A stretch of DNA of 20,746 bases from a virus: positions 1 through 20,746 of the IMG/VR virus record IMGVR_UViG_3300037117_000006. One strand, written 5' to 3'. Each line of letters opens with the position of its first letter. Within the stretch, counting starts at the first letter, position 1. The translations under genes were made by a program, and so were the position numbers. The notes beneath the pieces are model-generated. The model was not told the origin of the DNA. It was given only the letters and a program-made list of their open reading frames with translations, and did not search any database. Positions 3 through 18,990 of the stretch are shown here, in pieces.

Positions 3-413
3 GAAATGGGGCGTGACGGGGTTCGTGCGTTCATTGCTGGGCTGATTGATACAGATGGAACCGTGAATCGTAGTGGACAGTTTAGCTTCACGACGAAGGA
101 CTACATCTTCGCGGGGCAGGTTGCAGAGCTTGCTCGTGCTTGCGGACTTACTATTTACTGCGAGCCGTGCTTCAATAAAACCTACGAACGGTACTACATA
201 CGAGTACATTTTGCAGTCAATGATGGTGCGTTAATGAAGCCATTTTTGCGCCATGCTGGCAAGCAGAAACGAGTTGGTAGAAAGAACACTCCAAGAGTAC
301 CGAAACCAAATATGGTTACGGCAGTGATAGATGTTGGAGAGATGCCTTGCGTCGATTTGGAAGTTACGAGCAAGGACCATCTTTATGTTACAAATGGCTT
401 GGTGACGCACAAC
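3..413 (+). mobile_element. Intein C-terminal part with LAGLIDADG homing endonuclease, in polA
   Basis: The translated segment before the polymerase motif B holds a LAGLIDADG-type motif (FIAGLIDTDG), which in the DOD endonuclease family supplies a catalytic Asp. It ends with C-terminal splicing blocks: a V-x-D-L-E-V-T-x-x-H-x-x-x-V-x-N segment, then THN directly before Thr. The terminal His-Asn pair and the hydroxyl residue at extein +1 (Thr, codon 414-416) are the expected splicing residues. The insertion point is inside motif B, directly before TINFG and presumably just after the conserved Lys, the most conserved part of the host protein and a typical intein site. The N-terminal splicing domain and the first endonuclease motif lie left of the window, so activity cannot be judged fully. 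Confidence 0.93.
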
Positions 414-1004
414 ACCATTAACTTCGGAATCGTGTACGGCATGGGCGTTACAAAACTTATGGATACCATCAACTTCATTGCGAAGTGTGAAGAGAACATG
501 ATCGACATCAACGTTGCACGGGCGCTCATCGACGCTTACTTTGAGGGCTACCCATTAGTTGATGCGTACAAGATCAAGATGGGCAAGCGTGCAAGAAGAC
601 AAGGCTTCGTGACGACGATCATGGGGCGTAAGCGCAGATTACCAAACGCCTCTTCAAAGGATCGAGCGAAGTCTGCCGGTGCGGAGCGTCAAGCTGGTAA
701 CGCTCCAATCCAAGGATCGGTTGCCGACGCCATCAAGCTCGCGGTCATTCGGCTGGGACGTAAGCTTTGTGCAGAGCATTGGCCCTATCGCCTACTCTTG
801 CAGGTCCACGACGAGCTGATATATGAAGTGCCGAAGGCATGGCTGTCGAAACACAAGTCAACGATTAAGGTGCTCACAGGAATCATGGCTGAGTGTTTGC
901 CGCTATCTGTGCCGGTCATTGTGAAAGCTGACATCTTGAATCGTTGGGGCGACAAGATCGACCTTGACGCTATGGACTTTGATGAGGAAGAAATCACTGC
1001 ATGA
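3..1004 (+). CDS. polA: DNA polymerase I (family A), C-terminal part, carrying the end of an intein
   Basis: The frame is already open at the left edge, so the 5' part lies outside the window. The first 137 or so codons are the C-terminal half of an intein (separate entry). After the splice junction the polymerase resumes with family A motif B (TINFGIVYG, the O-helix that contacts the incoming nucleotide) and later motif C (VHDELIYEV, with the metal-binding D and E). This is the palm domain of a replicative or repair phage polymerase that extends primers with dNTPs. Motif B keeps Phe in the NFG position, as in E. coli Pol I, where T7 polymerase has Tyr. The basic stretch GRKRRLPNA between the motifs also fits the family. 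The stop overlaps the next start (ATGA), so translation is probably coupled. The exonuclease domain cannot be judged because it lies upstream. The identification is secure. Confidence 0.95.
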   Translation, partial: EMGRDGVRAFIAGLIDTDGTVNRSGQFSFTTKDYIFAGQVAELARACGLTIYCEPCFNKTYERYYIRVHFAVNDGALMKPFLRHAGKQKRVGRKNTPRVPKPNMVTAVIDVGEMPCVDLEVTSKDHLYVTNGLVTHNTINFGIVYGMGVTKLMDTINFIAKCEENMIDINVARALIDAYFEGYPLVDAYKIKMGKRARRQGFVTTIMGRKRRLPNASSKDRAKSAGAERQAGNAPIQGSVADAIKLAVIRLGRKLCAEHWPYRLLLQVHDELIYEVPKAWLSKHKSTIKVLTGIMAECLPLSVPVIVKADILNRWGDKIDLDAMDFDEEEITA

Positions 1005-5681: not shown

Positions 5682-6296
5682 ATGACCGATCCTAATAGAC
5701 TGCTCACTGCTTCTAAGATGATGAACGATGTTCAGCAGCGGCTATTTACGCTCTATGTTGGTATTGGGTCAAGTCGTACCATTTCAAAGCTTCACGAGCT
5801 TTGCCATGTTCGAGGATTTAACGTTACAAAACGCATGCTGGATCGTTGGAGTGCGAAGTGGCATTGGTCCGAGCTTGCAAAACTGACACAACAAGAAATC
5901 GCAAATAACGTTGCAAGAGAAGTACAGCCTCAGCTTCGGGAACTCATTGACCTTGATCTAAAAGCGTGTATAAAAATGAAGGAGCGATTTCATAAGCGGC
6001 TTGAGATTGATCCGTTCTCCGAGGACTTCGATGCGCTGCCGGAGGCGAAGAAAGAGCTTGCGATCATACCTGATCTTGCCGACTACGAGCGCGTTGTTCG
6101 ACTTGAGAAGCTGTTGCTCGGCGATCCTGAAGAACTAGAGCGCAAGGGCGAAGTCTCGCGGCTCGGTAAAGTGCTGGGTGACAACGACGGGAATGTCATT
6201 GCGACATTGCGTGAGCGGACGATTCAGGTTTACGGGCTGCCCGATAAAGACGTTATCAAAAAGGTGCATGAGCAGCTCGAAGGTGGTAAGGAGTGA
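5682..6296 (+). CDS. Putative terminase small subunit (TerS)
   Basis: A 204-residue protein directly upstream of the large terminase, whose GTG start overlaps its stop (GTGA). Residues about 30-62 form an HTH-like segment (SSRTISKLHELC, then VTKRMLDRWSAKWHWSE). The RW-x-x-KW-x-W pattern is common in phage small terminase and DUF1804-like proteins, which bind the packaging site on the genome and recruit the large subunit. The rest is helical and charged, fitting an oligomerisation region. No strong ribosome binding site lies just before ATG 5682 (only a weak GGGTTGAAG). A strong one sits about 50 bases upstream in a hairpin. The call rests on position and the HTH, not on a diagnostic motif. 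Confidence 0.7.
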   Translation: MTDPNRLLTASKMMNDVQQRLFTLYVGIGSSRTISKLHELCHVRGFNVTKRMLDRWSAKWHWSELAKLTQQEIANNVAREVQPQLRELIDLDLKACIKMKERFHKRLEIDPFSEDFDALPEAKKELAIIPDLADYERVVRLEKLLLGDPEELERKGEVSRLGKVLGDNDGNVIATLRERTIQVYGLPDKDVIKKVHEQLEGGKE

Positions 6297-8974
6297 CTGC
6301 CTTCTTACAAGCTGTTGCGGACAACACGACCTTTGGCTATGCCACGGAGTACATGATAGTCGATGGCCGTCCGTTTTCATTCGATGGGCACAGCTATCTC
6401 ATCGACTTGTATCAAGACAACCACCCCTACCAAGTCATCGAAAAGGCGGCCCAGATGGGTGCCTCGGTACTTGGTATGGCAAAGGCGTTCTTCGTCTGCG
6501 ACAAGCTCGGAAAGAACGTCATTTACTTCTTCCCGACTGATGAAGACGTGCGCGAGTTCTCCAAAGGCCGTGTTGCGCCGATCATTCGCGATTCGCCGCA
6601 CCTCGAAGCTGTTGTTGGTGACGCCGATGCGGTTGGACTGAGAAACGTTGGCCGAGGCTTCCTGTACTTCCGAGGCATGCGCTCGAACATTCGTATGAAA
6701 TGTTTTTGCGAAGATACGGAAGTGCTTACTCGCTCCGGCTGGAAGCATTTTGATTCAGTAACGAGAGAGGACTACATTGCTACGCGCTCACCGAGCGGCA
6801 TATTTATGTGGCAGCGCCCTACCGACGTTTGGCAGTACGACTACAACGGCGAAATGTTGCATTTCAAAGCTGCCGGAACTGATGTGCTTGTTACACCGAA
6901 TCATCGCATGCTGTTTCAATCTTGCCCAGGGAAGCAGGAATGGTTCGAGACAGCAGAGCAGCGCAGGAACGCGAAGGCTAGTCAAACGCACCAGCAGTTT
7001 GTCCGTAGTGATGTTACTTGGCGCGGCGAGGTTCCAAAGTTTCTTGTCAAGGACGGTCGGGATGCACATGGCGATAAGTGGTTCATAACGATTCCAGGTA
7101 ACAAGCGCAACAATGCGTGGGAATCGGCGGGAAGATTGCCTTCAAGGCGTATAAATCTTGCCGATTGGGTTGCCTTTCTAGGGCTGTACTTAGCAGAAGG
7201 TTCGACTCAAGGAGTCATGGGCGGCAAGCGTGGCGGTCGAGTTAGCATTTCTCAAGTTGAGAAATCTAAGCATTTCCAGCGGATACAAAAGCTGCTGCCA
7301 AAGATTGCCGCCACATGGAGCTACGATAACGGGAGCACATTTCGCATTGGTGATATGGAACTTGCGAAGGTGTTGTTTCCATTAGGCAACAAGTACAACA
7401 AGTTCGTGCCAGAGTGGGTGAAGAATCTGCCGCCCAGGTATTTGAAGATTTTGTGGGAGTGGGCTGTGGTCGGCGACGGCTCTGTTCAGCGTAGTCAAGT
7501 GCGGTACGGGACCATGAGCAAGAAGTTGGCCGACGATATGCAGGAAGTGTTAATGAAGCTCGGTGTTCTTGCGTATGTGAAACCGCAGAAGCAAAGTACA
7601 GTCCCGACGATTCGCGGGCGTCAAGTGAAGAGTACGGTGCCCTGCTACGTTGTTCTTGCACGAACTACCGGCAAAACAACCGTTGCACCAAGGCCGCAGG
7701 CTGTAAAGTATCGCGGCACAGTTGGATGCGTGTCAGTACCGAACGGCGTTATTTTGACGCGGCGTAACGGGCTTACTATGTGGAGCGGCAACTCGATTGC
7801 GGCTGACCTCCTCATCTTTGACGAGCTTGATGAAGTAACGAACAATCAGTTGGAGCTTGCAGATCAGCGCCTCAACCACTCATCGTTGAAGTGGCGTTAC
7901 CTCCTTTCGACGCCGACGTTCGACAACTACGGCATCGACCGCGAGTTTCGCAAGAGCGACCAACGGTATTGGAACCTCATCTGCAAGAACTGCCTGACGC
8001 CGAACATTACTGAGAAGCTGTTTCCTGATTGCGTAAAACGCATTAGCGAAGTGAAGTGCATTCTTGTTTGCCGCAAGTGCGACGCGGAGCTGGACGCACA
8101 GTACGGTCTTTGGATAGCAGAAAAACAGACTGAGCGCATTCGTGGGTATCATCTCTGCTCGCTCTACGGCATCTATACCGACCTTTCGGAGTTGATGTAT
8201 AAGTTCGAGGAAGGCCGGCACCGTGAAGAGTTCATGCGCTCGAAGTTGGGCATGCCGTGGGTCTCGACAGATCAGCGGTTGACGCCGGAGCTAGTGGAGC
8301 GGTGTTGCGAGCGGTACGAGTGTGGACCGATGGGCATGACGCACACCTACATGGGCGTTGACCAACGCGGGCGCGAGCTGCATGTCGTCATTCGCGGCAA
8401 TGATGATCGTACACGCCGTCCGAAAGACGTGCTTATCAAGCGTGTTCGCAAGTTCGAGGACCTCGACGTGCTTATGTCCGAGTTCGATGTAGACTTGGCG
8501 GTCGTTGACGGTACGCCGAATCAGCATTCAGCGCGGGACTTCTGCATGCGCTTTCCAGGCCGTGCCTACATGGCCTACTATAACGAGAATCAGCGTGGAT
8601 CGTACAAGTGGCAAGAGTCCAAGACTGATGACGAGGACTATCAGGTTACGGTCAACCGCACCGAATCGCTCGACGCCATGTATGAGGAAGTGCAGCGCCG
8701 CGAGATTATGCTCCCTAACCCCGACAACGCGGAGATTCACTCGTTTGTCGAACAGGTATGCAATCTTGCGCGCATCAACGAAGTCGATGACGACGGCGGC
8801 GTGAAGCATGCCGTTTACAAACGACTTGGCGAGGACCACTACGCGCACGCTTCAAACTACGCACTGATCGCACACTCGCGATTCGGTGGGCCGGTTCAAA
8901 GCATCATGGTACAATCGCCGATCATCTCAACAAATGTCGTAAGCCGCCGCTTCGAGGAAGGGTCTCGATACTAA
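6293..8974 (+). CDS. terL: Terminase large subunit (TerL), interrupted by an intein
   Basis: An 893-residue precursor with a GTG start. Removing the intein (residues 137-500) leaves 529 residues, a normal TerL length. The ATPase part has EKAAQMGASVL (about 50-60), which aligns with the deviant Walker A of lambda gpA (Lys at the front of the motif, no GK[ST]). Walker B LLIFDELDE (D510, E511) follows the intein, then the coupling motif LLSTPTFD. A zinc-ribbon-like set of four cysteines (C564, C567, C593, C596) separates the ATPase and nuclease parts, as in GpA-type terminases. The RNase H-like nuclease has GVDQ (D690), VVDGTP (D739) and GEDHYAHASNYAL (D848). The enzyme pumps phage DNA into the prohead through the portal and cuts it at start and end. 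The portal gene follows one base later. The call is secure. Confidence 0.95.
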   Translation: MTAFLQAVADNTTFGYATEYMIVDGRPFSFDGHSYLIDLYQDNHPYQVIEKAAQMGASVLGMAKAFFVCDKLGKNVIYFFPTDEDVREFSKGRVAPIIRDSPHLEAVVGDADAVGLRNVGRGFLYFRGMRSNIRMKCFCEDTEVLTRSGWKHFDSVTREDYIATRSPSGIFMWQRPTDVWQYDYNGEMLHFKAAGTDVLVTPNHRMLFQSCPGKQEWFETAEQRRNAKASQTHQQFVRSDVTWRGEVPKFLVKDGRDAHGDKWFITIPGNKRNNAWESAGRLPSRRINLADWVAFLGLYLAEGSTQGVMGGKRGGRVSISQVEKSKHFQRIQKLLPKIAATWSYDNGSTFRIGDMELAKVLFPLGNKYNKFVPEWVKNLPPRYLKILWEWAVVGDGSVQRSQVRYGTMSKKLADDMQEVLMKLGVLAYVKPQKQSTVPTIRGRQVKSTVPCYVVLARTTGKTTVAPRPQAVKYRGTVGCVSVPNGVILTRRNGLTMWSGNSIAADLLIFDELDEVTNNQLELADQRLNHSSLKWRYLLSTPTFDNYGIDREFRKSDQRYWNLICKNCLTPNITEKLFPDCVKRISEVKCILVCRKCDAELDAQYGLWIAEKQTERIRGYHLCSLYGIYTDLSELMYKFEEGRHREEFMRSKLGMPWVSTDQRLTPELVERCCERYECGPMGMTHTYMGVDQRGRELHVVIRGNDDRTRRPKDVLIKRVRKFEDLDVLMSEFDVDLAVVDGTPNQHSARDFCMRFPGRAYMAYYNENQRGSYKWQESKTDDEDYQVTVNRTESLDAMYEEVQRREIMLPNPDNAEIHSFVEQVCNLARINEVDDDGGVKHAVYKRLGEDHYAHASNYALIAHSRFGGPVQSIMVQSPIISTNVVSRRFEEGSRY
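6701..7792 (+). mobile_element. Intein with LAGLIDADG homing endonuclease, in terL
   Basis: A 364-residue in-frame insertion. It begins with Cys1 in CFCEDTEVLTRSGWK, the classic intein block A. Block B is VLVTPNHRM. The two endonuclease motifs are FLGLYLAEGS (about residues 294-303 of the precursor) and WAVVGDGS (about 390-397). It ends with VPNGVILTRRNGLTMWSGN and then Ser as extein +1. The penultimate residue is Gly where His is usual; some known inteins tolerate this. Joining the flanks gives MRSNIRMK-SIAADLLIFDELDE, a continuous approach to Walker B, which supports the borders. The endonuclease would cut intein-free terL alleles, allowing the element to spread between phages. Confidence 0.93.
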
Positions 8975-8975
8975 A

Positions 8976-11900
8976 ATGATATTCTCATCGGATGGCAAGA
9001 GTGCGCTGAAGTCGGTTGACGGTGAAGAGCGCGTTCAAGTCATCAGTCCCCAAGAAGCACAGCGGATTGATTGGGCAAAAACTACGCAAGTCATCGACGG
9101 CGCAAGCTATGAGCCGGACAAAGAGTTCGAGGACGCCGCAGTAGCTCGACCAATGAATCCAATGGACTTCACAGCAGAGACTTTTAACGGTAAGCCGTTC
9201 GAGGTCGAGGCTGAACTGTTCGAGGTTTCGCGCGACGGTACGGAGTATCGGTTGCAGCGTTACCCGAATAAGGCTGCGCTTGCTTCGCGCCTCAAGGAAG
9301 CCGAAACGCAGTGGCACACTTGGACACCTCCTGAGCGTCATTTACGGGAAGCCGTGCGGCCCAGAGAGCGTGCGATTGATACCGCAGTTGATGAGGCGGC
9401 ACGAGAGCAGTTACGAGAAGCGTTTGATGGTGGTGGGGGCTATCCTCCGGCCAATGACAGTCAAGCCTGGGCATCGAGTCGCTATGGTGATGGCTTCGAC
9501 GCACAAGCGGAGTACGTTCCGCTCATGGCGGGGCCGTGGTCGAAGCAGCTTTATCAGCGGCAGTTTTTGGAGATGCACTGCCTGACCGGCGATACGAAGA
9601 TTTTGATGCTTGACGGCACCTCAGTTCGTATTGATGACCTTGCAAAACGTGGTGGTGAGTTCTGGGTGTATTCATGCGATGGCACGCAGGTTGTGCCTGG
9701 ACGTGGCTATGACGCGCGCAAAACGGGTGATCTTCCGGTCTACGCCATTGCTTTGGATAATGGTGAAGTTGTCAAGGCAACGGGGAATCACGGTTTCATG
9801 TTACGCGATGGTTCATATAGACGAGTAGATGAGCTGAAACCGGGGGATAGATTGATGCCCCTGTACCGAAAATATAAGGGGCGTCGAACTAACCCTAAAA
9901 CGAAGCAGACTTACGAAAGTGTTTATCATCCTGGCATGGATTTGTGGGAGTTTACGCATCATCTTGTGGCTCGTAGGCATGTTGAAAACTTTTTTGAGTA
10001 TCGCGACGGCTACCACATTGACCATATCAATCAAGATGCTCACGATAACCGACCTGAAAATCTGCAACTGCTGACTTCTGGCGATCACATGCGGAAGACT
10101 GTTGCATGGAATCTTCAGCATTCGCCTGAATCGTTTACGGGAGCAAAAGGCAAGCCTGTCTCTGAAGCGCGCCGTAGAAAGATTAGCGAATCTAACCGTA
10201 GACGGCATGCAGCGTACACAGAAGAAGAGCGTACCTCCCTAAGTCAGAAACATTCCGAAGCTCAAAGACGCCGTTATGACAATGGCTATGCCATGTCAAA
10301 AGAGCATGTTGAATCTATTAGGCAGGCGAACTTAGGGCGCAAGCGTGACATAGTGAGTCGTACTCTTTCTAGCGAGAACGCTAAGAGTGTTTGGGACAGG
10401 TATACCCCTGAAGAGCGGCAAGCGCGTGTGAATAAAGTGAAAGCCGGTTGGACGCCGGAGAAGCGCGCAGCCCAGGCTATTCTTAATCATCGTGTGGTAT
10501 CGGTAACGAAACTTGGTGTCGAGCCGGTGTACGACATCTCTGTTCACGGATACAGCAACTTTGCTCTTGAAGCCGGAGTGTTCGTTCACAACTCGAAAGC
10601 GTTTGAGGCGTACAACCACAATCCGGTTGCACGTCGAGTCGTCAACATTACGCGCGACTTCATTTTCGGGCATGGGCTCGATCACGTTTCAACCAGCTCT
10701 GATGTTGATGAAGTGTGGACGGAGTTTGTAGAACGCACTGACTTCTACAACCTGCTCGCCGATACCATCTACACTGACCTCTCGTGGGCCGGTGAGATGA
10801 TGTTTGAATGGTATGATAACGATCCATTCAAAGGTGCCACAGATTTCCGAATGATCGACCCGTCAACGGTCTGGGAAATCGTGACGGACCCCGAAGACAT
10901 TTTCAACGTCTACTACTACTATCAGTCATACGAGACTGCCATGCAGCAGTACGTCACAGGCAACATTCCTTCTACGAAGTACATCATCCGGCAAATCCCT
11001 GCGAACCGCGTAACGCATATCAAGATCAACTCGTCCATGTACGAGAAGCGTGGGCGCAGTGATCTGTTCCCGAATCTCGGCTGGGTGAAGCGGTTGAAGG
11101 ATTTGATGAATGCTCGCGTCATCAAGGGCCAGCTCGAAGCGGCGTTCGTTTGGGACGTAGAAGTGCTTTCGGGTGACGCGAACGTTGCGGCGGTTGGGTT
11201 GAAACTGCCTGATCCATACAAGGCTGGCTCGACGTTCGTTCACAACAAGAACATTAAGTTGACGCCGGTATCGTCATCGCTCAAGGGTAACGAGCAAGAG
11301 CCTGATGTCGAGAATCTCATTACACTCATCGCGCTCGGTGGCAACATCCCCAAGGAGTTCTTGGGGCAGACTTCGCGCGGCGGTCGTGGCGGACAGCTCT
11401 TGTCGAGCGAGCCGGGTACAAAGTGGTTCGAGCGCCGTCAAGTGCTCATCGACCGGATCGTTCATACCGTAGCAAACCGCGTGATCGGCAACGCCATTAA
11501 GGCGAATATTCTGTCGCTGGACGACATCTTGAAGGATGCTCGTTCAGTGCGCCGTCTTGCGCCAAGTGCTTCAAACCAACCAAAGCGCGGGGACATTGAG
11601 AACAAGATCGAGGACACGCGCGAGGAGCAGCAAGATCAACGCGACGAAGCGCAGCAGACTCAGGCTGATGCACAACAGCAGAACGCTCAACAACAGCAGG
11701 ACGCCAAAGATCAGGCCGACAAGTCGAAGAACGGCAAGACTGAAGTTCACGTTTCAGTCAACGGAAAGGCTAAGGTGAAGGAAGCGATCCGTGGTGTTGT
11801 ACGCGAGTCTGAGGCCGACGATAGCAACGGCGGCCCGTTGACGAAGCAGCAGAAGGCGCGCATCGAGACCATCAAGAAGACGCAGAACTACTCCAAGGAG

Positions 11901-12578
11901 TTCTTGCAGTTCATGTTACCGGCTATCGCACAAGAGGATCGCTCCTCGAAGCTCAAAGACGTTGCACTTGCCGAGTCGATGGAATGGATTTCAAAGCGAA
12001 CGTCGGCAAACATGGGCGCTCACGAGCTGAACATTACGACCTACGACTTCGATGAAGAGCGCGTGCAGATCAACGCCGAGTCCGACGAAGGCATGTCGAT
12101 TGCCCATGTGTATTCGCAGGACGGTAAAAAAACTCCCGAGACCGTGCTTGCACAGGATGTTCAAGAGCGTGAGCAGGCAGAGCAGCCTCCTGCCGAAAGC
12201 TTTACGAACGTGCCTGTGCCTCCGACTACTGAAGGAATGAAAGTTGTTCCAACACAGGGTCAGAATCCAAGCGACCAACCCAACAGCGGCACGAAGAAGG
12301 TGAACCAGCACGCAGCTCTTGATACCAACGATACGAATCCAACCAGCACGAATAAAATGAGTCCAGAAAATCGAAACCCAATGACGGATAAAGGAAAGGC
12401 CGGAATACTCGCTCACGAACGTAGGACTAAAGCGTCGTTGCGCCGAGCCGTCAAAAGTGAAATCCTTAGAGAAGCCCTCGGGCCTCTTATGAAGGAAGAC
12501 AGTGCTCTTGCGAAGTTGATCTTGGAACGTAAAGCTGATGCTGTCAACTCGGAAGAGCTAGATGAAGCCCTGTCCTAA
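8976..12578 (+). CDS. Phage portal protein, interrupted by an intein, with long C-terminal extension
   Basis: A 1200-residue precursor, 862 residues after removal of the intein (residues 202-539). It starts one base after terL ends; GAGGAAGGG lies about 12 bases upstream. The portal identity rests on position after TerL and on the block after the intein: YNHNPVARRVVNITRDFIFGHG, then DLSWAGEMMFEWY, PSTVWEIVTDPED and NIPKEFLGQTSRGG, the order seen in SPP1-like and related portals. The portal forms the dodecameric DNA channel at one head vertex. After the core comes a coiled, Gln/Asp/Glu-rich stretch (nt 11620-11720) and about 250 further residues with low-complexity linkers (PPAESFTNVPVPPTT), longer than most portals. 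These could be a fused scaffold-like or accessory region. The first 200 residues are also poorly conserved in look. The overall call is strong; the tail function is unknown. Confidence 0.88.
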   Translation: MIFSSDGKSALKSVDGEERVQVISPQEAQRIDWAKTTQVIDGASYEPDKEFEDAAVARPMNPMDFTAETFNGKPFEVEAELFEVSRDGTEYRLQRYPNKAALASRLKEAETQWHTWTPPERHLREAVRPRERAIDTAVDEAAREQLREAFDGGGGYPPANDSQAWASSRYGDGFDAQAEYVPLMAGPWSKQLYQRQFLEMHCLTGDTKILMLDGTSVRIDDLAKRGGEFWVYSCDGTQVVPGRGYDARKTGDLPVYAIALDNGEVVKATGNHGFMLRDGSYRRVDELKPGDRLMPLYRKYKGRRTNPKTKQTYESVYHPGMDLWEFTHHLVARRHVENFFEYRDGYHIDHINQDAHDNRPENLQLLTSGDHMRKTVAWNLQHSPESFTGAKGKPVSEARRRKISESNRRRHAAYTEEERTSLSQKHSEAQRRRYDNGYAMSKEHVESIRQANLGRKRDIVSRTLSSENAKSVWDRYTPEERQARVNKVKAGWTPEKRAAQAILNHRVVSVTKLGVEPVYDISVHGYSNFALEAGVFVHNSKAFEAYNHNPVARRVVNITRDFIFGHGLDHVSTSSDVDEVWTEFVERTDFYNLLADTIYTDLSWAGEMMFEWYDNDPFKGATDFRMIDPSTVWEIVTDPEDIFNVYYYYQSYETAMQQYVTGNIPSTKYIIRQIPANRVTHIKINSSMYEKRGRSDLFPNLGWVKRLKDLMNARVIKGQLEAAFVWDVEVLSGDANVAAVGLKLPDPYKAGSTFVHNKNIKLTPVSSSLKGNEQEPDVENLITLIALGGNIPKEFLGQTSRGGRGGQLLSSEPGTKWFERRQVLIDRIVHTVANRVIGNAIKANILSLDDILKDARSVRRLAPSASNQPKRGDIENKIEDTREEQQDQRDEAQQTQADAQQQNAQQQQDAKDQADKSKNGKTEVHVSVNGKAKVKEAIRGVVRESEADDSNGGPLTKQQKARIETIKKTQNYSKEFLQFMLPAIAQEDRSSKLKDVALAESMEWISKRTSANMGAHELNITTYDFDEERVQINAESDEGMSIAHVYSQDGKKTPETVLAQDVQEREQAEQPPAESFTNVPVPPTTEGMKVVPTQGQNPSDQPNSGTKKVNQHAALDTNDTNPTSTNKMSPENRNPMTDKGKAGILAHERRTKASLRRAVKSEILREALGPLMKEDSALAKLILERKADAVNSEELDEALS
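9579..10592 (+). mobile_element. Intein with HNH homing endonuclease and NUMOD-like repeats, in the portal gene
   Basis: A 338-residue in-frame insertion starting at Cys (CLTGDTKILMLDG, block A), with block B VVKATGNHGFM, and ending in YDISVHGYSNFALEAGVFVHN followed by Ser at extein +1. All splicing residues look intact. In place of LAGLIDADG motifs the middle holds an HNH motif (YHIDHINQ, then DNRPENLQLL and a GDH; precursor residues 346-371). Several short basic repeats follow (SEARRRKISESNRRR, SKEHVESIRQANLGRKR), which resemble NUMOD3 DNA-binding modules of intron endonucleases. The joined exteins read LYQRQFLEMH-SKAFEAYNHN. This makes a different endonuclease lineage from the other two inteins in the window. 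Confidence 0.93.
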
Positions 12579-12633
12579 GTGTGGGCAACAGGACGCTGAT
12601 GACGAACTAGCTCGTCAGCGCATTGCTTGTTGA
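12562..12633 (+). CDS. 23-residue peptide with CPxCG motif
   Basis: A very short frame between the portal and MuF genes. ATG 12562 lies in the portal end (17-base overlap), with GGAAGAG six bases upstream, and the stop at 12631-12633 overlaps the TTG start of the next gene. The peptide begins MKPCPKCGQQ and ends in IAC, so it has half a zinc ribbon (C-P-x-C-G) plus a third Cys. It also neatly fills what would otherwise be a 50-base gap in a genome with almost none. It may be a real microprotein, or mainly a device that carries ribosomes from the portal gene to the non-ATG start of the next gene. Evidence is spacing, ribosome binding site and the Cys motif only. Confidence 0.5.
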   Translation: MKPCPKCGQQDADDELARQRIAC

Positions 12634-14102
12634 TTAAAGTTGTTGACCGCCAACTCTTTGAAGCCAAAGCCAAGCGCCGAAAGGTGCGGGCTGCGATAGG
12701 CTCAATCCTTCGTAATGCTCGCAAGCCGCTGTTCAACCGAGTCGAGATTGAGATTCAGCGATATCAAGCAGCACTCGTCAACCTCCTGAATCAATCACAG
12801 CGCGATCTTGAACAATCGGTAGGGGCGTCAGGACATCTTGCGATTACACTTAACGATCTCGTTGAAGAGTTCCAGAAACTCGGAATGGTGTATCTGCAAA
12901 ACGGTGCGGACATCGGGTACGAGCGCGCTCTCACAGACTTGAAGGATCGCGGCTGGATTGCAAGTTATCAGGAGCCGGTCCACGCGCCGAAGGAAGCCGT
13001 CGAGGCTGTCTTGACTGCGAACTACAAGTACCTGCGTTTGAGCTTGCTACCTGACTTACAGAAGAAACTGCAATGGGCGACGCCAAGCAACGTCGGCCCA
13101 GCGATTGCAGCAATGCGTGCTCGCGTGCAGATGTACGGTCACTATGTCTGGGTCGCGAGTCAGGAAAGTTATCGCGCATGCATCAAGGACTTTTTCACGC
13201 ACACGACGCTGCATGAGAGTGCTGTACCACGCAAGATCAAGATTCGCGAAGGTGGGCCCGGCTCCGGGTTTCACGGGCATGCCGGTCGTCCTGGTATTCG
13301 CGGCGGATCGGCAGCGGGAGGCGGTAAGGCGCAAGCGATTTTCTTAATGGGTGGCAGTGCAAGTGGGAAAGGACGCCTTGCCCAACGGTACGCGAAAGAA
13401 TACGGCATTAAGAATGTCATCAACTGCGACCATATCAAGGAAGCCTTCCCACTCTTCACCGGCAAGCCGATCAACGGTAAGTACGGAACGTCGGGTCCAA
13501 AGACGTATCAGGAGCTGATTGAGAACTACACTCCTGAAGAAGTTGCAAACGTCAACGAATACATCCGCGATCATACCCCCTTCTCCGACGTGCATGAGTT
13601 TGCACAGCGGCAGTTCGGCGATCCCGACAAGTTCTATGAAGACAACAATCCGGCAAGTGGTGGGCTGACGCATGAAGTATCGTCGTACATCGCAAAGCAA
13701 CAGCTTGCGGGCGCACTTGATTCGGGCAAGTCATTCGTTTATGATTCGACCGGCAACGGTTCGTACTATCCGATATGGGCAGGCAAAGCTGCCGACGCCG
13801 GGATGGCTGTCACTATCGCTCAGGCATACGTTCCTCGCGAAGTTGCACACATGAACGACGATGCTCGTGGAGCGAATGCTGATCCGGGCGATCTGACGGG
13901 TCGGACGGTGGGCTCGGCGGTCCTAATGAGCACCCATGATAAGGTAGACGCGATGGCTCCGGTTATGGCTGCCTGGGCTACAGGGGCGCGTGCAGCGGGC
14001 CAGGACGTGACCTTCACGCGCGATGATACCTACACCCCGGAGATGCTCGCCAGAGCCCGAGAACTTGGCTATACCTACTCTTCGCGACCTACCGGAAACT
14101 AA
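12630..14102 (+). CDS. MuF-like head protein fused to a zeta-toxin-like kinase domain
   Basis: A 490-residue protein from TTG 12630, overlapping the preceding stop (TTGA); TTG 12627 is an alternative. Residues 1-200 are helical and charged and lie directly after the portal, the usual place of the MuF/SPP1 gp7 minor head protein. Residues 208-227 form a Gly-rich linker (GPGSG...GRPG...GGS). From 235 on there is a P-loop kinase: IFLMGGSASGKGRLA (Walker A 241-248), NCDHIKEAFP (Asp as in zeta toxin), a THEVSS helix start, DSGKSFVYDSTGN, and a late GRTVGS. Zeta toxins phosphorylate UDP-N-acetylglucosamine and block wall synthesis; relatives phosphorylate other substrates. No epsilon-type antitoxin is visible. 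MuF proteins enter the capsid, so the kinase could be packaged and delivered with the DNA. The kinase family is clear; the MuF part rests more on position, and toxicity is unproven. Confidence 0.78.
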   Translation: MIKVVDRQLFEAKAKRRKVRAAIGSILRNARKPLFNRVEIEIQRYQAALVNLLNQSQRDLEQSVGASGHLAITLNDLVEEFQKLGMVYLQNGADIGYERALTDLKDRGWIASYQEPVHAPKEAVEAVLTANYKYLRLSLLPDLQKKLQWATPSNVGPAIAAMRARVQMYGHYVWVASQESYRACIKDFFTHTTLHESAVPRKIKIREGGPGSGFHGHAGRPGIRGGSAAGGGKAQAIFLMGGSASGKGRLAQRYAKEYGIKNVINCDHIKEAFPLFTGKPINGKYGTSGPKTYQELIENYTPEEVANVNEYIRDHTPFSDVHEFAQRQFGDPDKFYEDNNPASGGLTHEVSSYIAKQQLAGALDSGKSFVYDSTGNGSYYPIWAGKAADAGMAVTIAQAYVPREVAHMNDDARGANADPGDLTGRTVGSAVLMSTHDKVDAMAPVMAAWATGARAAGQDVTFTRDDTYTPEMLARARELGYTYSSRPTGN

Positions 14103-14115
14103 CACCCTACCACTT

Positions 14116-14158
14116 TTGTAGCATACCCCCTTGCGGCGACGGAACGCCTATGCTACAA
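14116..14158 (+). repeat. Perfect 10-bp inverted repeat overlapping a promoter
   Basis: TTGTAGCATA (14116-14125) and TATGCTACAA (14149-14158) are exact reverse complements separated by 23 bases. A further GGCG...CGCC pair (14135-14138, 14145-14148) lies inside. The right arm covers the -10 region of the promoter entry, so it could be an operator bound by a dimeric repressor. No T-run follows, so it does not look like a plus-strand terminator. It lies in one of the few non-coding gaps of the window (14103-14177). Confidence 0.65.
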
Positions 14159-14159
14159 T
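14131..14159 (+). promoter_or_regulatory. Sigma70-like promoter for the accessory gene block
   Basis: TTGCGG (14131-14136) and TACAAT (14154-14159) are separated by 17 bases, and TGC directly before the -10 gives an extended -10 (TGnTACAAT). Transcription would start near 14166, leaving a leader of only about 12 bases made up of the strong ribosome binding site GGTGGAGGTGA before ATG 14178. Such a short leader is unusual and is a reason for caution. The overlap with the inverted repeat suggests control by a repressor. Confidence 0.55.
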
Positions 14160-14177
14160 AACGGTGGAGGTGACAGA

Positions 14178-14792
14178 ATGGTCTCGACAATGACTGACAT
14201 GGAAAAGCCCAACGCATTCACTGATTCGTTCGATTCCTTCGTATGCGACGAAGATACAATCAAAACTGAGCCTGATACGAACGGAGTCTACTACGTCGCA
14301 ACTGTCAAGTATGATGGCTGCGGCGAAGCGCCGTGGGAAGAGAATGACGGGCACGGGCCGGTCTCCGATTGGCGACGACTCGACAGTAAGCGGCCCGGCG
14401 AGCGCGTCTTGTGCACCGATAGAAGCAGTGCTCGCTTCTACGACTTCGAGGAAGCCGTGAAGATCGCACGCGCAGACGGCTGGGACGCCGAACCATACAA
14501 AACGGGAACGCCAGGTGAACGGGCAGTACGCGCAGTCGAGGACGACTTCAAGGTCCTCAAAGCGTGGTGTAATGACGAGTGGAGTTACTGCGGCGTCGTG
14601 CTCTCGCAACGGCAGATCGTTGACGAAGATGACGTTGAACTCGACAAGCATGTCGAGAGTCTGCGGGGCATCGAAGCCAACTATCCCGGCACCAAAAACG
14701 AGCACCTTACTCAGGTCGCGAATGACTTGCTCGAAGAAGCGAAGAGCCGGACGCATTCGCGCCGCATGATCGTGGAAGTGGTGGCGACATGA
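14178..14792 (+). CDS. Conserved-type phage protein, function unknown
   Basis: A 204-residue protein. ATG 14178 has an excellent ribosome binding site (GGAGG, 7 bases before). It is acidic and soluble with no signal peptide or membrane segment. Notable segments are GVYYVATVKYDGCGEAPWEE, GHGPVSDWR, KRPGERVL and RFYDFEEAVKIARADGWD (about residues 36-115), a pattern I associate with small phage and plasmid hypotheticals of unknown role. The C-terminal 70 residues are helical and end in RRMIVEVVAT. It is the first gene after the 14131 promoter and overlaps the next gene (ATGA), so it leads the accessory operon. No enzymatic motif was found. Confidence 0.8.
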   Translation: MVSTMTDMEKPNAFTDSFDSFVCDEDTIKTEPDTNGVYYVATVKYDGCGEAPWEENDGHGPVSDWRRLDSKRPGERVLCTDRSSARFYDFEEAVKIARADGWDAEPYKTGTPGERAVRAVEDDFKVLKAWCNDEWSYCGVVLSQRQIVDEDDVELDKHVESLRGIEANYPGTKNEHLTQVANDLLEEAKSRTHSRRMIVEVVAT

Positions 14793-16775: not shown

Positions 16776-16895
16776 ATGATCGGTGAGGACGAAGAAGAAG
16801 AACGCGCAGGCGTAGCACAGGCGCAGGGCGGCAGCAAGAGCCGGTCGAATCGCTGGGATCATGATCTATCAGGACCCTACGACATGGCCTCGTGA
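16776..16895 (+). CDS. Possible 39-residue acidic/Arg-rich small protein
   Basis: ATG 16776 lies 5 bases after the previous stop, with GGGTAAAGGG upstream as a fair ribosome binding site. The product begins MIGEDEEEERAG and ends NRWDHDLSGPYDMAS, overlapping the start of the next gene by 35 bases in another frame. The stretch would otherwise be a 90-base non-coding gap. Support is limited to the start signal and spacing; the family is unknown. It may serve mainly to bring ribosomes to the next start, which has no good site of its own. Confidence 0.4.
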   Translation: MIGEDEEEERAGVAQAQGGSKSRSNRWDHDLSGPYDMAS

Positions 16896-17655
16896 CGAGA
16901 AGGCCCTAGCAGAAGGCAACCGCGCGATGGAGGCCGCAGCACCGGCTTACCAAAGAGGCGACGATGACGAACCCGACTATCTGTTCTCGGAGCTGGTAAA
17001 CGGCAAGTGGCAGCCCTGCAATCGCGACGAGCACGGCATGCCAATCACAACCCCGGCGAGCGAACACGCACGGGTACAAGAGGGCGGCGCAGGATCGGGA
17101 TACCACGGACACCCAGGTCGTCCTGGGCAGCGTGGAGGATCGGGAGCAAGCGACGAGATTTCAAAGGCAATCAGTGGCATTCGCAAACATGGTGGCGTTA
17201 CCATCGACATCCATGGAAACATGCCGCAACACGGCTTTACCGTAGGTGGGCTGGGCGAAGAGAAGATCGTGGATAGGCTGACTCGTGAAAACGTGCAAGA
17301 ATATCACGTCAATAACGCGACGGCACTCGCGCAACCGAATCGGTACTTCGGAGGTTGGATTGAAAAGGGTCAGTTCTACATGGACGTTTCCGAAGTGCTT
17401 GGATCGCGAGTCGATGCATTAGCAGCGTGTCACGAGCGATTACAGATTGCAGCGTTCAACCTAGACTCAGGGGAATCGGTGTATGCAATGAGTGACGAAA
17501 GCAGACCGGGTAAGGATAACCCGGCAACCGAGATTCGCGAATCGGAAGGCAAGAAGCCTGAGTTTCCGAAGCTGTTGCTATTCGGCAAAGACGTGAACTT
17601 CGATGACATCGTGAATAAGGTCAACGCTGAAATCGAGAAGTCGAAAGCGTCGTGA
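16861..17655 (+). CDS. Second protein with the GRPG linker, fused to an unknown C-terminal domain
   Basis: A 264-residue protein; ATG 16861 is the only start left, because an in-frame stop lies shortly upstream. The N-terminal 70 residues are polar and Pro/Asp/Glu-rich, with YLFSELVNGKWQPCN. Residues 75-94 repeat the linker of the MuF/kinase protein (EGGAGSG, HPGRPGQRGGSG). The following domain (about 110-215) contains IDIHGNMPQHGFTVGG, LAQPNRYFGGWIEKGQFYMDVSEVL and AACHERLQIAAFNLDSGE. This resembles a compact alpha/beta domain that I have seen as a C-terminal module in phage head and polyvalent proteins, but it has no function I can name. It is not like the zeta kinase. The shared linker suggests both are packaged or processed alike. 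It ends with a GTGA overlap to a micro-ORF. Confidence 0.75.
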   Translation: MIYQDPTTWPRDEKALAEGNRAMEAAAPAYQRGDDDEPDYLFSELVNGKWQPCNRDEHGMPITTPASEHARVQEGGAGSGYHGHPGRPGQRGGSGASDEISKAISGIRKHGGVTIDIHGNMPQHGFTVGGLGEEKIVDRLTRENVQEYHVNNATALAQPNRYFGGWIEKGQFYMDVSEVLGSRVDALAACHERLQIAAFNLDSGESVYAMSDESRPGKDNPATEIRESEGKKPEFPKLLLFGKDVNFDDIVNKVNAEIEKSKAS

Positions 17656-17699: not shown

Positions 17700-17752
17700 T
17701 GAGCGACATAGAGCGTGCGATTACAAGTGCTGAGAAGAATGAGCACTTGTAA
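17699..17752 (+). CDS. 17-residue micro-ORF running through a hairpin (possible leader peptide)
   Basis: The ATG overlaps the stop before it (TGATG), and the TAA overlaps the next ATG (TAATG). The peptide is MSDIERAITSAEKNEHL. Its last 11 codons lie in a 12-bp perfect inverted repeat, so a translating ribosome would open the hairpin just before the start of the 17752 gene. A control role by translational coupling is more likely than a stable product. Confidence 0.45.
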   Translation: MSDIERAITSAEKNEHL

Positions 17753-17753
17753 T
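17720..17753 (+). repeat. Perfect 12-bp inverted repeat (strong hairpin) over a start codon
   Basis: ATTACAAGTGCT (17720-17731) pairs exactly with AGCACTTGTAAT (17742-17753) around a 10-base loop, GAGAAGAATG. The right arm runs into the ATG of the downstream gene (17752-17754). An overlapping alternative fold (GAGC 17741-17744 with GCTC 17764-17767, GTAA 17749-17752 with TTAC 17759-17762) is followed directly by TTTTTATT and would exclude the first hairpin. Translational or transcriptional control is inferred. Confidence 0.75.
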
Positions 17754-18267
17754 GAGTGTTACAGCTCTTTTTATTGGCCCCGATGACAACGAAACGTGCA
17801 ATGGTTGTGAAGATGCGGTCGAAGGCAACCCGTACACGATAGAAACATGTCCGCAACCGGGCGATCAGGAGTGCATGTCGCGCTGTCGGCACGCGATTCA
17901 GATCGACGGCAACGCCCCATCGGACATGCCGACGATGACTTGGCGAGGATCGCTTGGGTTTCAGCCCGAGCTAGAGCCCGCTGAACCTGCGTTAGTCGAT
18001 ACCATTACCCCAGATGAAGGGATGCAGTCACCTGTAGACTTGGTGAACGCCTGGGCGAAGCACGACTCCGATATACTTTCAGGGATTCTTACCGACGATC
18101 CCAAGGCGCTCGAATACGCGAAACAGCTCGCAGTTCAGGGCTTTGATGATGTCGATGCAGTATCTGCGTACAATCTCGCTGATGCACTGAACGATGTAAC
18201 GAACCATGAAACGTGGCACGTCATCCTCCATGCAGGTCGCTGGTATGTTCAAGCTCAATCGTCGTAG
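17752..18267 (+). CDS. Protein with N-terminal Cys/His cluster, possible detached minor-head-protein segment
   Basis: A 171-residue protein; ATG 17752 overlaps the micro-ORF stop (TAATG). The first 50 residues hold CNGC (16-19), GNPYT, PQPGDQEC and SRCRH (C41, C45, H47), a probable metal-binding cluster. A similar Cys/His arrangement with GNPY and PQPG is, as far as I recall, found near the end of MuF-type minor head proteins. Here it is detached, 3.6 kb downstream of the MuF gene. Then comes an acidic Pro-rich linker (about 70-92) and a C-terminal alpha/beta part (SPVDLVNAWAKHD ... NHETWHVILHAGRWYVQA). No export signal is visible. The leader suggests controlled translation. The head-related reading is a hypothesis. 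Confidence 0.68.
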   Translation: MSVTALFIGPDDNETCNGCEDAVEGNPYTIETCPQPGDQECMSRCRHAIQIDGNAPSDMPTMTWRGSLGFQPELEPAEPALVDTITPDEGMQSPVDLVNAWAKHDSDILSGILTDDPKALEYAKQLAVQGFDDVDAVSAYNLADALNDVTNHETWHVILHAGRWYVQAQSS

Positions 18268-18490
18268 CGCACTTGCGCTCATCGGCGGCATACTCATGCT
18301 GCCTGCGTTGCCGAAGCCTAAAGCTCCTGATGAACCGGACATCGTTTGTGGTGGTCCGTGGGGTCAAGAAACTGCGGACTTGTGGACGTGTGGTATGTAT
18401 AAGAGCGGGCCATTAACGATTGCGCTTTTAGAGAAAACATGGCTTGACGAGCATCGTCGCATAATGGACTACTACCGGGGTGCAGTATGA
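18245..18490 (+). CDS. Small membrane-anchored or exported protein with Tat-like N-terminus
   Basis: An 81-residue protein. ATG 18245 lies 23 bases before the previous stop; an upstream ATG at 18206 would add a polar N-terminus that spoils the signal. The N-terminus MFKLNRRSALALIGGILMLPALPKP has a twin Arg before a hydrophobic run, like a Tat signal or a membrane anchor. It lacks the full SRRxFLK consensus and a clear AxA cleavage site. The mature part has two Cys (VCGGPWGQ, WTCGMYKSG) that might form a disulfide outside the cytoplasm. It is followed at once (ATGA) by the HExxH protein, so the two may act together. The family is unknown to me. Confidence 0.65.
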   Translation: MFKLNRRSALALIGGILMLPALPKPKAPDEPDIVCGGPWGQETADLWTCGMYKSGPLTIALLEKTWLDEHRRIMDYYRGAV

Positions 18491-18990
18491 ATGCGATTCA
18501 GCTCGTCGTATTTGACAAGCCGGTTAGCTTTTGGTGCGATGACTACACGACGCCTGAAGAACAAGCAACGGCTACTGCTGCCTTCATAGCCGCCGTCGCG
18601 CTACTCAACAGCCGCCGAGCATACTTTGATGATGCCCTCGTTGCGGCTATCAAAGAGATCAACGCCATCGTTATCACAGGTTCGGACAAAACGAACCTTG
18701 GTGCAACAGGAAAGTACAGTATGCTGCTATCGTCGGCATACATTGCACTGTGTTCAATCGCGTGGATTGCATCGCTGTTTATACACGAAGGGCAGCATCA
18801 TCTCAACGCTGGGAAGTATCCAGCGCCGAATGAATGGTGCAACGAGCAGTCGGCAGCACGGATGCAACTTACGGCTGGCGTGCTTATGGGATTCACGCCA
18901 TCCGAGGGCGCTGACCTCATAGCATATTCTGCGGACAGCAATGCCTCGGCAATGGAAGTTCATATGCGCGGATACAAAGGTCCACAGTGA
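18487..18990 (+). CDS. HExxH metalloprotease-like protein
   Basis: A 167-residue protein, ATG 18487 overlapping the previous stop, with GGGGTG upstream. Residues 92-104 read AWIASLFIHEGQH, a hydrophobic helix ending in HEGQH, which fits the zinc-binding HExxH (H100, E101, H104). A downstream Glu in CNEQSAARMQ (E120) sits 16 residues after H104 and could be the third zinc ligand, as in gluzincin-type folds. The following helix (RMQLTAGVLMGF) fits the same pattern. There is no signal peptide, so it may act in the cytoplasm or with the exported neighbour. Substrate and role (processing of a phage protein, host attack or wall-related) are unknown. The stop overlaps the next GTG. Confidence 0.68.
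   Translation: MNAIQLVVFDKPVSFWCDDYTTPEEQATATAAFIAAVALLNSRRAYFDDALVAAIKEINAIVITGSDKTNLGATGKYSMLLSSAYIALCSIAWIASLFIHEGQHHLNAGKYPAPNEWCNEQSAARMQLTAGVLMGFTPSEGADLIAYSADSNASAMEVHMRGYKGPQ

Follow-up and report, generated by a model that had tools for sequence, protein, structure and literature searches.

We analyzed a 20,746-nucleotide (nt) stretch of viral DNA (IMG/VR record IMGVR_UViG_3300037117_000006, positions 1 to 20,746; hereafter the window) that encodes a probable head protein fused to a zeta-toxin-like kinase. Judged by sequence comparison, the 20-residue peptide at the fusion point is a conserved junction, nearly specific to viruses, that joins predicted head proteins to interchangeable enzymes across many unrelated phages. 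The gene product is, with reasonable probability, a swappable (polymorphic) virion effector that would be packaged, released by the phage's own head protease and active on a putative kinase substrate.

The gene is a single open frame on the plus strand (12627–14102, TTG start) in the window's list of open reading frames (ORFs) and encodes 491 residues. Homology to relatives starts only near residue 17–24, and the true start is uncertain. The protein can be divided into three elements, all encoded on the plus strand: an all-helical carrier domain (residues 1–208; 12627..13250), the junction GGPGSGFHGHAGRPGIRGGS (residues 209–228; 13251..13310), and the kinase (residues 229–491; 13311..14099). 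An earlier note, made from the sequence alone, had described a MuF-like head protein joined by a Gly-rich linker to a zeta-toxin-like kinase. It placed the start at 12630, the next in-frame TTG, so that its K247 is K248 in the numbering used here. The linker is present at residues 209–228 but was understated, being a conserved and near virus-specific element.

The junction has the consensus GGxGSGxxGHxGRPGxxGGS. A degenerate nucleotide pattern for sequences like GHxGRPGxxGGS matched at least 119 viral stretches; the counts that follow are among the matches listed. The His, Arg, Pro and final Ser belonged to the search pattern and the upstream GG.GSG flank did not, and this unsearched flank is conserved at G94 G87 x G88 S94 G94 percent (193 distinct elements, 106 loci). 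With the same pattern, an in-frame G.GSG lies upstream in 91/119 viral loci versus 4/119 prokaryote loci, and all four of the latter lie inside phage head or packaging genes. Portals are the commonest N-terminal parts (Phage_portal_3, 11; Phage_portal, 7; Portal_Mu, 2; 72 N-parts), followed by NUDIX, Mu_F (4) and others, and a head maturation protease is also found before the junction. The C-terminal parts include ADPrib_exo_Tox (16), topoisomerase IB (3), GNAT (3), PBECR3 (2), Zeta (2), Ntox50 (1) and Gln_amidase (1); 146 of 175 were scanned, the remainder being the 27 shortest plus L006 and L055, which are among the longest. A third zeta-like payload behind a junction is the kinase of L006. 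Many stand-alone effectors consist of a short leader followed by the junction. String searches of the open-access literature returned no description of the junction or of its phage-specific residue (see below), which does not prove absence from print.

The residue preceding the GG of the junction (P1) is specific to each phage. P1 agreement was 0.88 within genomes versus 0.15 between genomes (kappa 0.86; 126 elements, 41 genomes), a value reached by none of 2000 permutations; the next highest variable position gave 0.61. Elements without G.GSG, genomes with fewer than two elements, and near-duplicate copies (at least 60% identity over 14 residues downstream) were excluded from this sample, and loci that shared a contig or were nearly identical were merged manually. 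A replicate on 23 elements from six new genomes, with the outcome predicted beforehand, gave 0.92 versus 0.17 (kappa 0.91, 0/5000 permutations), and P1 was again the highest position. The replicate omitted L253, which shares a contig with L054, and L256, which has a single element; three of the 11 scanned stretches were not new. The third bases of the adjacent Gly codons gave a kappa of 0.01–0.27, compared with 0.86 for P1. Because P1 specificity is not seen at synonymous sites, DNA copying is not its cause: what is phage-specific at P1, and to a lesser degree at P3, is the amino acid and not the DNA. P3 in turn depends on P1 (genome-weighted), with I/L/V/M found for E (85%) and R (86%), R/K for A (93%) and L (55%), and an aliphatic residue in just 5% where P1 is D.

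Other junctions were seen in passing. The L251 contig carries eight junctions, six with L at P1 and seven with K/R at P3. A second recurrent Gly-rich junction, RHYGPGxHPGTGTxQxxHAG, occurs in four copies in one ORF (L006:3-5999) beside the GRPG junction. A third repeated type, YVDSPDEAPEG..VQQG and WVSDPTEQAPNRWTHTETGEHRYQE, surrounds zeta and ParB domains in protein 114 of halovirus HCTV-5 (L129:4653-8534), which suggests that archaeal tailed viruses use junction peptides of their own.

The same carrier has different endings in related phages. A terminase search identified relatives L122–L124 (60% identity), and a later motif search identified L257 (58% identity in the terminase large subunit, TerL, and 46% in the portal). 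Single-protein searches of viral contigs with the full protein, the carrier, the kinase and the portal found no direct relatives, and a phage tblastn search gave no match to the full protein and weak matches only to the kinase. The post-portal gene of L124 and L123 encodes a bare, free-standing carrier of 188 residues (32% identity over 168 residues, E 7e-30). The L257 carrier (31%, E 2e-26) runs through a junction into a terminal domain for which all six sequence matches in the Protein Data Bank (PDB) are sulfiredoxins, weak at E 0.007–0.027. We presume this domain to be ParB-like from a motif; Pfam and PHROG do not support the ParB reading, the weak sulfiredoxin matches being its only matches. 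By sequence, one carrier thus has three endings, with the change at the same junction: in the window it leads into a kinase, in L257 into a ParB/sulfiredoxin-like domain, and in L123/L124 it is bare.

A second carrier (carrier B; 17752..18267, plus strand) is bare in the window, while its homologues carry junctions and effectors, so that its loaded/bare pattern across relatives differs from that of the first carrier. In L124, five junctions come after carrier B, together with ART-like repeats and a peptidase-like HEMGH domain (labels by eye), the first module matching phrog_2579 'ParB C-terminal domain' (E 1.5e-34); in L257, a single junction and a HETGH domain (peptidase label by eye) come after it. 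Another L257 ORF (4359-6464) has a 10-residue leader followed by three junctions and modules, the second of which matches the RNA-polymerase ADP-ribosylase family phrog_832 (E 7e-4).

Residues 229–491 form, by sequence, a zeta-toxin-like kinase that retains the core catalytic residues K248, D268, D373, R414 and R426, in agreement with the earlier note. Pfam Zeta_toxin (PF06414) matches at 35.5 bits against a cut-off of 22.3 (E 9e-9). An AlphaFold2 model of the domain (three-sequence alignment) has a mean predicted local distance difference test (pLDDT) score of 73 and a predicted template modeling (pTM) score of 0.72. In the structural comparison with zeta/PezT that the note had proposed, a Foldseek search with this model returned the zeta toxin 1gvn first (E 6.8e-5), with 3q8x and PezT 2p5t also at E<1e-3. 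G242, G247, K248, D268, K271, H349, D373, R414, G425 and R426 are invariant among seven aligned kinases, those of the window and of six phage relatives (L082, L006, PSS2, DAC19, HCTV-5 and Phrappuccino). We take K248 (13368–13370), in the P-loop GGSASGK (residues 242–248; 13350..13370), D268 (13428..13430) and the two conserved arginines R414 and R426 (13866..13904) to have the roles of their zeta counterparts, D268 presumably being the equivalent of the zeta catalytic Asp. An insert of ~70 residues (13452..13661) is unique to the window kinase and absent from all six relatives.

Several observations weigh against a canonical zeta kinase. In a structural second look, polynucleotide kinase scores higher (Z 14.1) than zeta does (Z 12.2). 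The Glu of the HxE motif, present in all six relatives, is V351 in the window only, and the window P-loop reads GKGR, without Ser/Thr. V351 alone does not exclude membership in Zeta_toxin, and in the PSS2 and HCTV-5 kinases, too, the residue after GKG is neither Ser nor Thr. Together, V351 and GKGR mean that activity or substrate may differ from those of zeta.

The carrier is probably a head protein, a role suggested by its gene position and its relatives. The gene lies directly after the portal gene, in the packaging module; this MuF-like placement is shared by L123/L124, and in L257 one effector gene intervenes. Only this post-portal place fits a MuF protein, and we reject MuF membership of the carrier on sequence. 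The MuF profiles (PF04233/PF06152) gave no match at E 10 to the window carrier or its L124 homologue and none to that of L257, and hhalign against two MuF proteins gave a probability of 0.1%. Pfam had no match for residues 1–231 at E 1 or for residues 1–208 at E 10, and PHROG had none for the carrier at E 0.1. The AlphaFold2 carrier model is helical and of low confidence (pLDDT 63.5); a BFVD search with it returned nothing at E<0.001 and several weak matches named minor capsid protein, and a structural second look in the PDB gave generic helix bundles only.

The residues before the junction resemble head-protease sites. The carrier ends in K-I-R-E (13239..13250), the putative P4–P1 of an I-x-E/GG site whose P1 is genome-specific, and the second linker-bearing protein of the window has R-V-Q-E/GG; L124 has L-R-E/GG in 5/5 copies and L257 has xRE/GG in 5/5. 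The clade pattern [I/L/V]xE/GG is that of T4 prohead-protease sites. According to PMC9026906, T4 gp21 cleaves after L/I-X-E and releases packaged internal proteins whose leaders target the head; phage SPN3US is described in PMC10052503 as removing a 254-residue propeptide from its portal by cleavage. The portals of the window, L124 and L257 contain [IL]xE[AG] 20 times versus 3.85 expected, and with D, Q, K, R or N at P1 the same motif occurs 7, 2, 1, 3 and 4 times versus 3.6, 3.7, 3.4, 2.8 and 2.8 expected. The terminases contain [IL]xE[AG] once versus 1.7 expected.

Cleavage by the head protease also has evidence against it. Because the three portals share ancestry, the sites in them lack independence and count as one line of evidence. 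The carriers of other E-type genomes have no significant excess of the motif (6 versus 3.6, p 0.18; for non-E genomes, 39 versus 30.7, p 0.07). P3 is mixed, with K/R in none of the three P1 = L elements of L252. None of the three contigs (window, L124 and L257), all of them partial, has an identified protease gene, and a protease that recognizes a short motif would have no need of 20 conserved P′ residues.

The conservation of the whole element, beyond the P1 side, would fit a docking or ejection signal, in which a virion or ejection component binds the 20 residues, the phage-specific residue tunes binding, and no cleavage takes place. The stand-alone effectors made of a short leader and the element point the same way. 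The element is also found in portals and MuF proteins, though, for which docking would be needless, and variation is sharpest at a single residue with a weaker echo at P3, as in a protease site; we doubt this explanation slightly more than that of an uncut fusion, which is itself unlikely. In an uncut fusion the kinase would stay on its carrier as in MuF polymorphic toxins, with the junction a flexible, swap-tolerant spacer. MuF toxin fusions are known (PMC5576092, PMC12226406), cyanophage PSS2 has a MuF-zeta protein without the GRPG linker, and the carrier swaps are equally compatible with it. A bland spacer, however, would not fix the His, Arg, Pro and Ser positions (which the search pattern included, unlike those of the Gly and Ser upstream) or keep a phage-specific residue just upstream. 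Lastly, a linker conserved as a shared DNA segment driving domain shuffling would be a recombination hot spot. Fourfold sites within loci match modestly more often than a position-shifted control (38.4% versus 29.3%), and three L124 copies share DNA; between loci such sites are at chance (26.9% versus 26.7%), and 90 of 158 same-P1 pairs use different codons. We reject a recombination site on these synonymous positions as very improbable.

Under the preferred reading, release by the head protease, the carrier would be incorporated into the prohead beside the portal, the maturation protease would cleave I-R-E/GG after P1 (E208) and free the kinase within the capsid, and the kinase would exit with the DNA and, soon after infection begins, phosphorylate a metabolite of the host or a nucleotide-like substrate. 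Should its action resemble that of zeta/PezT, the substrates would be UDP-sugar cell-wall precursors. The earlier note's suggestion of a phage-delivered effector is supported, with packaging predicted from sequence. We are evenly divided on whether many unrelated phages share one effector-loading standard, in which the junction is preceded by a P3-x-P1 matched to each phage's own maturation protease and any enzyme behind it, whether carried by a portal, a head protein or a short leader, would be packaged and cut free for ejection. If so, an isolated kinase fusion becomes a searchable, testable effector-delivery code: the junction could serve for cataloguing virion-delivered effectors in metagenomes, and release there may explain how an effector tethered in the portal region gets into the host. 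The residue before the junction would predict each phage's head-protease specificity, if the protease reading is true.

The window protein is a variation on polymorphic virion effectors, and what a specialist would find surprising is the junction. MuF-zeta kinase fusions are already in print (Iyer et al., 2017, PMC5512222, which also proposes assemblin-like and metallopeptidase processing of polyvalent proteins), and the PSS2 minor head protein is one (PF04233, 4e-10; PF06414, 1e-22). Like these MuF-zeta and other MuF or portal polyvalent fusions, the window protein belongs to the head module and has a C-terminal zeta-like kinase; unlike them, its carrier has no MuF homology, and PSS2 lacks the junction. 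Its resemblance to T4 internal proteins and Alt, with their gp21-cut capsid-targeting sequence (PMC9026906), lies in a leader or carrier, an xE/G-type site (I/L/V-x-E/GG in the clade) and a packaged effector, whereas effectors of the window type also occur on portals and head proteins, behind a junction of 20 fixed-pattern residues with a P1 that varies by phage. With zeta toxin and PezT (epsilon-zeta, PezAT) it shares the P-loop kinase fold, the Lys, the Asp and two Arg, and it differs in having no evident antitoxin gene, a virion-type context, the 70-residue insert and V351 in place of the HxE Glu. A constant carrier with a variable C-terminal enzyme, here kinase, none or ParB/sulfiredoxin-like, is the trait of polymorphic toxins (Jamet et al., 2017, for MuF; Iyer et al., 2012); the differences are that no immunity gene was found in the window and that the junction is a short peptide, not a releasing-peptidase domain.

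The next gene (14178-14792) belongs to phrog_11104, a family shared with 48 other phages, of which 41 are Pseudomonas phages. Such a widespread family is unlikely to be a cognate antitoxin; no immunity gene was recognized in the window (ORF list, PHROG), in line with the earlier note. The occurrence of phrog_11104 in Pseudomonas phages is a possible hint of a proteobacterial host. A strong hairpin without a clear T-run (14116-14172, z −4.6) lies between the kinase stop and this gene.

The second linker-bearing protein (16861..17655, plus strand) comprises a 74-residue N-terminal part ending in RVQE, the junction GGAGSGYHGHPGRPGQRGGS (17083..17142, plus strand) and a domain matching phrog_3170/phrog_17808. 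A 167-residue protein with HEGQHH (18487-18990) looks metallopeptidase-like by eye and has no PHROG match. The kinase-fusion gene lies directly downstream of intein-bearing TerL (6293..8974) and portal (8976..12578) genes, both on the plus strand and assigned by Pfam/PHROG; the portal tails are enriched in [IL]xE[AG]. In L124, L123 and L257, the terminase and portal ORFs that are intact look free of inteins. The ORF at the 5′ end of the window (6-1004) is DNA-polymerase-like by eye, and its start also looks intein-like. The portal intein (nt 9579-10592) contains an HNH domain.
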